Shown: piece after piece, positions 5,432 through 53,111 of the stretch
Position numbering within the stretch: position 1 is the stretch's first letter
How the letters are laid out: every line of letters starts with the position of its first letter
Source of the DNA: Fibrobacter succinogenes
GTDB lineage: Bacteria; Fibrobacterota; Fibrobacteria; Fibrobacterales; Fibrobacteraceae
Direction of reading: 5' to 3'
Length of the DNA: 64,000 nt
NCBI GenBank assembly: GCA_902762305.1
Contig: CACWNW010000002.1
Coordinates: 1-64,000, forward strand
The notes under the pieces: generated by a model
Told to the model about the DNA's origin: nothing
The model's input: only the letters and a program-made list of their open reading frames with translations
Database searches by the model: none
Made by a program: the position numbers and the translations under genes

Positions 5432-6634
5432 CTACTTTAAAAATGAACGCATTTTCCAGATGAGCGACGGGCATGCCCAGAGCACCGTGAAGAATATGCG
5501 GAACAAGGTTTGCTTTTCGCGCGGGAGCTTCGAAAGGCTCTTCGCTGCGCGGTCGAACTGCGAATCCTTGATGGCGTTGAAGCCGGGCTTCGCACGGGCA
5601 ATCTGCAGGTGGGCATCGCCGAGGACGTCCATCCAGCGGCCGAGAGTACCTTGTTCGACCTTCTGGCGGGCATCGGGCGTTCCGGCTGCAAGCCAGTCCA
5701 CAACAGCTTCCGCGACAATTTTTCCACAGAGCATCGATTCCACAATGCCCGAACGGCTGATGGGGTTCACGCAGCTTGCAGCATCGCCGGCCTTAAAAAG
5801 GCCACAGCGGGCCAAGGGACGCTGCGATTGTCCGCAGGCGATCATGCCGCCGTAGATGGCCTTGACCTTCGCCTGCGGGTAGCGTTCCGCGATAAACGAC
5901 TTCAGTTTTTCGCGCAGCGACGTACCGGGCAGAGCGCTCTTCCCGAGCACGAAACCGATGTTCACTTCGACGCCATCGCGCGGGAAAATCCAGCCGTAAC
6001 CGTCCTGGAATTCGCTCCCGAAAAAGAGTTCAATATGTTCCGCGCTGTGCTCGATACCTTCGGCGACAGCAAACACTGCCGGTTCCAAATCAGTATCGCC
6101 AGATTCAATCCCATCGAGGCATTCAATACCGCGGGTAAGGCGCGCACCCGGGCCAGTCGCATCGACGACTGCCTTAGCCTTTACAGTTTCCGTAACGGAA
6201 CTGGGGCCCTTCACGCAGACATTCCACGTGCCGTCCTCATTGCGGGACAGCGACTTCACGAGCGCGTCGAAACGGCATTCCACACCCGCCTCGGCACAGC
6301 CATCGGCAAGCGCATGGTGGAATCCGGAACGGTCCAGGATAAGCCCGCAGTTCTTGCTGTAGAACTCGGCCCTGTAACGGCTCGGCGAAGTAAAGTAAAT
6401 TCCAGAAATTCGACCTCGTACCCAGGACCGGTCAACGGGCCACAACTTGCTCAGACGGTTCTCGGACACAGCCTCGGCGCAGAAGATGGGTTCTTTCCAG
6501 GGAGCCTTCTTGTCGAGCAGCAAAACCCGTCTGGCACCGCCCGTCTGTCTGGCAAACGTACAGGCGGCCATAAGGCCTGCAGGACCGGCCCCGCAGACGA
6601 CCAAATCGTACGATTGAAACTTAAAAAGGGACAT
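5432..6634 (-). CDS. Geranylgeranyl reductase-family FAD oxidoreductase
   Basis: 400-residue flavoprotein with the Rossmann signature VVCGAGPAGLMAA at residues 12-24, an RSGFHHAL segment and the PISRSGI region that contacts FAD. These fit the geranylgeranyl/digeranylgeranyl reductase family, which reduces isoprenoid double bonds of lipids, quinones or chlorophyll precursors. The substrate is unknown. A UbiA-type prenyltransferase with archaeal-like motifs lies at 32527-33471, so an isoprenoid lipid or quinone role is plausible. The gene starts eight bases after a TAATTTTG box and has no ribosome site. Confidence 0.8.
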   Translation of the reverse strand: MSLFKFQSYDLVVCGAGPAGLMAACTFARQTGGARRVLLLDKKAPWKEPIFCAEAVSENRLSKLWPVDRSWVRGRISGIYFTSPSRYRAEFYSKNCGLILDRSGFHHALADGCAEAGVECRFDALVKSLSRNEDGTWNVCVKGPSSVTETVKAKAVVDATGPGARLTRGIECLDGIESGDTDLEPAVFAVAEGIEHSAEHIELFFGSEFQDGYGWIFPRDGVEVNIGFVLGKSALPGTSLREKLKSFIAERYPQAKVKAIYGGMIACGQSQRPLARCGLFKAGDAASCVNPISRSGIVESMLCGKIVAEAVVDWLAAGTPDARQKVEQGTLGRWMDVLGDAHLQIARAKPGFNAIKDSQFDRAAKSLSKLPREKQTLFRIFFTVLWACPSLIWKMRSFLK

Positions 6635-35901: not shown

Positions 35902-35933
35902 AGCTGTTTTGGCTGACCAAAACAGCTTTTTTT
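35902..35933 (+). terminator. metK terminator that contains one arm of the paired repeat
   Basis: An 11-bp perfect stem AGCTGTTTTGG/CCAAAACAGCT with loop CTGA, then TTTTTT. The inner part is arm 1 of the repeat unit at 35908-35951. Confidence 0.85.
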
Positions 35934-35951
35934 GTGTTTTAGTCAGCCAAA
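35908..35951. repeat. Paired-arm repeat, unit 1
   Basis: Arm TTTGGCTGACCAAA, 16-bp spacer, arm TTTAGTCAGCCAAA. Arm 1 lies inside the metK terminator. Confidence 0.85.
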
Positions 35952-36023
35952 AAACGAACGGCCCGCCTTGCGGCCCCCAAAAAGCGGTTTCCCGCGGCTA
36001 TTCCGCATTTAATTTGTATGCAA

Positions 36024-36067
36024 AATGACTGACTAGAATGCAATTTTTCACAATTTAGTCAGCCATT
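36024..36067. repeat. Paired-arm repeat, unit 2
   Basis: Arm AATGACTGACTAGA, 16-bp spacer, arm TTTAGTCAGCCATT. The arms match each other at 12 of 14 positions. Confidence 0.75.
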
Positions 36068-52533: not shown

Positions 52534-52685
52534 CGATAGCGGGTGCAAAGCCCGCTAATTTTTTGCAGGAAGCGCGGAGGACGAGAGAAATGCGCCCCTA
52601 TGCAAGCGTAAACGGCTATCGCGAATGACGCGCGGGGAAAGATGCGCGGGCCAAATCATGGTGTTTTGAAAGCGAAATCCCGTAT

Positions 52686-52729
52686 TTTGGCTGACTAAAG
52701 TTCAATTTTCAGCGATTTGGTCTGCCAAA
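52686..52729. repeat. Paired-arm repeat, unit 3
   Basis: Arm TTTGGCTGACTAAA, 16-bp spacer, arm TTTGGTCTGCCAAA. Confidence 0.85.
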
Positions 52730-52770
52730 TTTTACTTTATCCGTAACAGATTTAGGTGAGCCGAGGGTCA

Positions 52771-52814
52771 TTTGGCTGACTAAGTTCCCGTTTTATGCGA
52801 TTTAGTCAGCCACA
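52771..52814. repeat. Paired-arm repeat, unit 4
   Basis: Arm TTTGGCTGACTAAG, 16-bp spacer, arm TTTAGTCAGCCACA. Confidence 0.85.
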
Positions 52815-52876
52815 AAAGCCAAAATCAACCATCCGCAATGTAGAAATACACCCCATTCTTGTTACTTTATTCACAA

Positions 52877-52920
52877 ATTGGCTGACTAAAACGGCACTTT
52901 CTTCAATTTAGTCTGCCAAA
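52877..52920. repeat. Paired-arm repeat, unit 5
   Basis: Arm ATTGGCTGACTAAA, 16-bp spacer, arm TTTAGTCTGCCAAA. Confidence 0.85.
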
Positions 52921-53111
52921 AAGCAAAAATCAGCCCCCAAAAAGCCCCTATTAGCCCCGAAAAAGAGCGAATCCCGCGCAAATCAGGTCCGAAAAACTCT
53001 AGATTCCCGAAATTCGGCCCGCGGCAATGTCAAACCCGCAAAGGCAGAGCCAACCCCGCAAAAGCAGCACCCCTCCCGAAGCAGCGCCAAACCCGCAAAA
53101 AACATCCCACA

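Follow-up and report, generated by a model that had tools for sequence, protein, structure and literature searches.

Inverted repeats in the window examined here (the whole analysed stretch of Fibrobacter DNA, 64 kb in length) belong to a dispersed set of helically phased arrays, and we consider it probable that these arrays are the cognate double-stranded sites of a nuclease-like protein and have spread in trans as non-autonomous copies. This reading is built on the units themselves, their phasing, the arm dialects, the linkage of a gene family to the arrays, the congruence between dialect and protein, one dialect switch in place and a predicted protein fold, all of which were computed. The genome that contains the window (3.6 Mb, 57 contigs) is referred to as G000.

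Paired-arm units and helical phasing in G000

Two arrays are located within the window, one beside metK (35911-36064) and one beside murA (52689-52917) (Table 1). An earlier note had described two paired-arm units beside metK and both were present, with one and two mismatches, respectively, to GGCTGACTAAA-N16-TTTAGTCAGCC. The distance from the first to the second is 116 bp, corresponding to 11.05 helical turns, and no middle unit was found between them. The murA array (units at 52689, 52774 and 52880), the phasing of units, the phased A/T-tracts and a second motif, the TTANTTTGT box, go beyond what that note contained. The murA array sits between two intrinsic terminators, one kept by each flanking gene. 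At metK, the first arm (35902-35934) folds into a strong hairpin with a U-run behind it (AGCTGTTTTGG-CTGA-CCAAAACAGCT-TTTTTTT) and may therefore double as the metK terminator.

Table 1. Array features in the window
Feature	Position	Strand	Remarks
metK array unit 1	35911-35948	+	arms 35911-35921 and 35938-35948; 16-bp spacer with central T-tract
metK box b (TTAATTTGTATGCAAA)	36009-36024	+	starts 18 bp before the next unit
metK array unit 2	36027-36064	+	corresponds to the U3 position of complete arrays
murA array left flank	52560-52688	+	such flanks in G000 have T-tracts phased with the array at 10.5 bp
murA array U1	52689-52726	+	first unit of the array
murA box a (TTACTTTATCCGTAAC)	52732-52747	+	43 bp from U1 start
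murA array U2	52774-52811	+	85 bp (8.1 turns) from U1
murA box b (TTACTTTATTCACAAA)	52862-52877	+	18 bp before U3
murA array U3	52880-52917	+	106 bp (10.1 turns) from U2
murA array right flank	52918-53110	+	such flanks in G000 have A-tracts phased with the array at 10.5 bp

The consensus unit in G000 is GGCNGACYAAA-N16-TTTRGTCNGCC, that is 38 bp with 11-bp inverted arms around a 16-bp spacer. The arms had been described as paired and 14 bp long; the pairing holds, but strict conservation is limited to 11 bp, to which TTT is usually added. When G000 was searched with spacers of 0 to 30 bp allowed, nine exact pairs were found, all with a spacer of 16 bp, and the reversed control gave none, which excludes a chance origin of the units. 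With up to three mismatches 50 units were obtained (control 0), and a permissive pattern gave 58 units in 21 intergenic arrays. At the array loci (up to four mismatches) the spacer was 16 bp in 57 units and 17 bp in one, so the exact spacer proposed for the metK units, both of which have it, applies genome-wide. Few copies or evenly spread spacer lengths had been named as what would count against the repeat, and the 50-58 units with N16 spacers gave no such refutation. The spacers had also been thought constant in length and variable in sequence. Their length is fixed, but their sequence is partly conserved in that G000 spacers carry a directional central T-tract.

Each G000 array contains two to three units and no isolated units were seen in this genome. 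The arrays resemble one another over 300-400 bp including flanks, with up to 82% identity. Three related arrays are found within 11.5 kb of contig C8 (L051:4736-16311), and a pair among these, with 82% identity across 359 bp, are the most recent-looking copies in G000. Inspection by eye found neither clean insertion edges nor target-site duplications at the arrays. The arrays lie between ordinary genes (metK, murA, alaS, ilvD, glgC, dnaX and others, with names assigned from the sequences of the genes); 11 of the 21 are placed between convergent gene pairs and the rest between co-oriented or divergent genes.

The distances between units in G000 range from 74 to 212 bp in steps of one helical turn, with classes at 74/75, 85, 96, 106, 116, 126/127, 137, 168/169, 191 and 202 bp and a single distance (109 bp) outside the phase classes. 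Their phase coherence at 10.5 bp is R = 0.91 (n = 37), where the distances are not fully independent given that the arrays are mutually related; despite this kinship the arrays differ from each other by whole turns. The flanking DNA follows the same period, since T-tracts on the left side (R = 0.67, n = 203) and A-tracts on the right side (R = 0.58, n = 163) are periodic with the array at 10.5 bp and in the same phase as the T-tract at the unit centre, whereas control intergenic DNA of G000 showed weak periodicity only. The second motif, TTA(C/G/A)TTTGT, occurs at fixed offsets: it starts exactly 18 bp before U3 in 20/21 G000 arrays and, in most of them, is also found 43/44 bp after the U1 start. 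Across G000 there are 26 boxes in arrays, 2 elsewhere in intergenic DNA and 5 in genes.

In other genomes, 47 distinct arrays gave the same picture (79 distances; R = 0.90 at 10.5 bp, rising to 0.92 at 10.55-10.6 bp), the phasing of A/T-tracts recurred around arrays of other species, and the box, which different dialects share, was present at the same offsets in 34 of the 47 arrays with about 1.5 occurrences expected. The phasing of units and A/T-tracts in G000 and elsewhere supports the suggestion, made from the metK units, of a protein that reads paired sites on one helical face. GC skew was positive to the left and negative to the right of G000 arrays (19/21 each) independently of gene orientation, for example in the murA flanks (52569-53040 of the window). 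Strand breaks followed by resection were considered as the source of this flip, which was dropped as evidence because its left half does not recur in other genomes (24/47 arrays).

A nuclease-like gene family linked to the arrays

Five loci from five genomes were fetched by the array pattern alone and all of them contained a homologue of one protein beside the array. In the opposite direction, strict N16 arrays were present at 26/50 loci fetched by the protein as compared to 0/39 control loci and 0/50 shuffled ones. With the criterion relaxed to spacers of 15-17 bp, an array was located within about 370 bp of 49/50 family genes and in 0/58 control flanks, and the unit distances in these gene-side arrays had R = 0.92 at 10.5 bp. 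Different paralogues within one genome are associated with different array dialects, and the more alike two proteins are, the more alike their arms tend to be (Mantel r = 0.61, 0/5000 permutations, for loci that are not phylogenetically independent). Four paralogues reside together in G000, with the dialects GGCTGACTAAA, GGGTACCAAA, GGGGATTAAA and GGCGTATAAA. The gene of the GGCTGACTAAA dialect is situated outside the window on contig C20 (C20:18179-19222; L059:4677-5726, minus strand) and has an array on either side (L059:3956-4183 and 6087-6315); a 127-aa gene of unknown family lies between it and one of these arrays. In one gene clade the array is 3' of the gene, which weakens autoregulation as a general rule. 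In the relative G029, near-identical arrays flank a family gene as direct repeats (L150:1-1861 and the end of L155, corresponding to the start of contig C3 and the end of contig C6), and both contigs break inside the array. This arrangement suggests tandem copies of an array-gene cassette.

The family proteins are about 280-350 aa long, evolve fast and match no Pfam or NCBIfam model. The PADLOC PDC-S68 models share the C-terminal domain and all 31 family members match them. Among 168 genomes of the phylum, the only full-length members outside this genus came from a single other genus in the same taxonomic family. AlphaFold2 models were confident (pLDDT 91 for one G000 paralogue and 84 for the C20 protein) and predicted an N-terminal helical arm and beta-hairpin followed by a C-terminal nuclease-like domain of the Vsr/EDxHD-type PD-(D/E)XK class. 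The predicted C-terminal domain aligned with the catalytic domain of I-Bth0305I with Z 8.5 (rmsd 2.8, 92 of 97 residues), with TnsA at Z 8.4, Bax1 at Z 7.9 and Vsr at Z 6.7, where a Z of about 8.5 is in the middling range by the comparison tool's own scale; Foldseek returned no match with E below 0.001. These models give the domain a predicted Vsr-like catalytic fold. In the 31 aligned members E182 (RSKSE), P272-D273 (PDF) and W287-E288-H289 (WEH) are invariant, and from these residues only we infer a putative catalytic site.

Arm dialects and orthologous places in other genomes

Outside G000, the GGCTGACTAAA arms gave nothing but single chance-like matches in the genomes tested. The search of relatives with G000 arms was nearly empty because the relatives use other arms: G029 has the same architecture at orthologous places with TACGGACTAAA arms. 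The core GACTAAA-N16-TTTAGTC was matched in 15 of 80 genomes of the genus and was clustered in ten; among genomes with this core the outer arm letters are genome-specific. A full-length family gene was present in 14/15 of the GACTAAA-positive genomes vs 34/65 of the others (Fisher p = 0.0025). In G028 two units were seen and no family gene was found, which could reflect a relic or an assembly gap. Unit distances in other genomes of the genus were 53, 63, 74, 84/85, 95, 105, 136, 158 and 169 bp. A further dialect, GGCGGTGAAAT, was predicted from the protein side and found dispersed in G061 (25 units), G006 (11) and G096 (7), and a genome-wide search found it absent from G000, G030 and G083.

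The genes flanking most testable G000 arrays are adjacent and collinear in G029. One orthologous array could be compared between the two genomes; the surrounding DNA is alignable, a different dialect has replaced the arms in place, and the units are separated by a main indel of exactly 10 bp, about one turn. Many other G000 arrays are missing at the orthologous place, where the G029 intergenic regions measure 2 to 134 bp vs about 500 to 630 bp in G000 (134 bp vs 629 bp at murA). An RNase P RNA-like gene adjoins a G029 unit that is orthologous to a G000 array (L127; G029:C11:19000-24500). Clustering of arrays at origin or terminus was considered; the positions are scattered over the contigs of G029 and G068.

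When about 85,000 genomes were scanned, 12 stretches came up, all from Chitinophaga, Alistipes and Mucilaginibacter; GGCYGACYAAAAAG-type arms prevailed, and no arrays were noted in the 60-bp flanks shown. The repeated ones from Chitinophaga sp. Ak27 (L094, L095, L097 and L103), GGCYGACCAAAAAG inverted pairs of the same outer spacing, sit near contig ends and look like insertion-element or terminator repeats. The stretches from the three genera were set aside as probably unrelated. Among viral contigs there were no unit matches, and protein matches were at the domain level only.

Competing explanations, related systems and implications

The most serious competitor, which we regard as possible though not the likelier outcome, is that a domesticated family protein uses the arrays to organise the chromosome or to regulate genes, with the nuclease fold serving for binding only and nothing mobile. 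Conserved gene order around the arrays, the persistence of at least one orthologous array in different species despite a change of arm dialect, and a strict phasing that implies a maintained nucleoprotein structure are all in its favour; however, many arrays are missing at the orthologous places in G029, the G000 arrays are copies of each other, and none of the 31 aligned members departs from the E, PD and WEH residues. The linkage data bear on a different proposal, in which another, unknown protein reads the arrays and the nuclease-like genes are frequent passengers or regulated neighbours. The box is independent of dialect, so a further factor or a constant part of the protein must read the array, but an array near 49/50 family genes, dialects that each follow their paralogue, and a dialect predicted from protein and then found dispersed make this proposal unlikely.

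Two further ideas had been raised in the earlier note. In favour of RNA hairpins, be they bidirectional intrinsic terminators or a structured RNA, the units can form RNA folds of -13.7 to -21 kcal/mol, and at metK the first arm has the form of a hairpin followed by a U-run. Only this one of the four stretches folded was terminator-like, however; at murA the two flanking genes each retain a terminator of their own, one on either side of the array, arrays also occur upstream of genes and between divergent and co-oriented genes, and both the 10.5-bp phasing, which RNA hairpins leave unexplained, and A-tract curvature belong to duplex DNA. The note's view that this is not a simple terminator is supported, and RNA hairpins are a very improbable explanation. 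Least probable, to the point of being hardly credible, is the REPIN/RAYT reading, in which a Y1 tyrosine transposase would move a REPIN-like element and for which the inverted pairing, intergenic position and dispersal of the units speak, as do single arms that look near-palindromic by eye (TTTGG-CTGA-CYAAA). The only Y1_Tnp gene of G000 (C18:886; L062:844-1293) has IS200-like ends by eye and stands alone with no array adjoining, isolated units were not seen, and transposition through single-strand hairpins has no use for helical phasing of a duplex. What survives of the mobile-pair idea is dispersed, mutually similar copies linked to another, nuclease-like gene.

REP and REPIN sequences are dispersed intergenic inverted pairs whose cognate RAYT gene is flanked by its own repeat class; the class follows the protein clade and switches over evolution (PMC3116915, PMC3686654). 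The G000 units likewise form an inverted short-repeat doublet with a spacer, intergenic and dispersed, and a nuclease-type gene lies beside its own repeat class, which follows the protein clade and switches. The enzymes differ, a Y1/HUH transposase in one case and a PD-(D/E)XK-type protein in the other; the arrays combine two to three helically phased units, each with its 16-bp spacer, with a constant box and with flanks whose A/T-tracts are phased; they number tens as compared to hundreds for REP/REPIN; and the REPIN tetranucleotide (GTAG or similar) was not seen beside the palindrome in the array units listed. EDxHD homing endonucleases have E, D, H and D as catalytic residues, and they cut an empty allele and home into it. 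Their member I-Bth0305I, the best structural match of the modelled C-terminal domain, is reported to dimerise on a target of nearly 60 bp (PMC3943268). Family genes, in contrast, are not intron-encoded, have a different N-terminal domain and are associated with many chromosomal arrays instead of one target site. With Vsr and TnsA of Tn7 the models share a predicted PD-(D/E)XK core, but sequence identity is 8 to 19% and a non-systematic look noticed no mismatch-repair or Tn7 genes beside the family genes. The PDC-S68 candidate defence proteins have the C-terminal domain in common with the family, but their models are 1200-1270 aa long and the family proteins are far shorter and tied to arrays.

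Helical spacing of subsites is also a feature of Tn3-family res sites, which contain three inverted-repeat subsites, are linked to a serine resolvase and recombine between copies. The subsites of the arrays, unlike those of res, are identical in design, and no serine recombinase was noticed on casual inspection. Gene order is conserved across testable arrays and gives no sign that DNA between copies has been deleted or inverted.

The reading we prefer, cognate sites spread in trans, would work like REP/RAYT with a different enzyme and with double-stranded, helically phased sites. An array would be a piece of helically phased, curved DNA with two to three predicted 38-bp binding units. The putative cognate protein of the metK- and murA-type arrays is the C20 family member, whose multimers would bind the units directly on one face of the DNA and form a wrapped complex. 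The gene-side array probably also controls the nuclease-like gene, and the dispersed arrays are most likely copies of it that the protein would mobilise or maintain in trans. Mobility is suggested because the copies are alike and because array-free intergenic regions are shorter in relatives. On a wider scale, we lean slightly towards a genus-level radiation of orthogonal nuclease-like protein/DNA-array pairs, in which several paralogues share a genome, each reads its own dialect on curved, phased arrays via a long nucleoprotein wrap and the specificities of the protein and of dozens of sites shift in concert.

Open-access literature, outside which most subscription journals lie, gave no precedent for Fibrobacter repeats, phased elements or similar systems. 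The system appears new given that it is absent from this literature and from the libraries searched. If this wider reading is true, bacteria would have a further class of selfish or chromosome-structuring element that differs from REP/RAYT, from homing introns and from the nucleoid site systems known so far, and it looks like a new route for the spread of small non-autonomous elements or for the wrapping of chromosomal DNA. Sequence analysis alone has connected an unnamed, fast-evolving nuclease-like family with what appear to be its DNA targets, and the more than 10 protein/site dialect pairs with strict geometry form a natural set in which the co-evolution of binding specificity and many genomic sites becomes directly testable. 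The family may supply orthogonal DNA-binding modules, and its host genus consists of cellulose-degrading gut bacteria.
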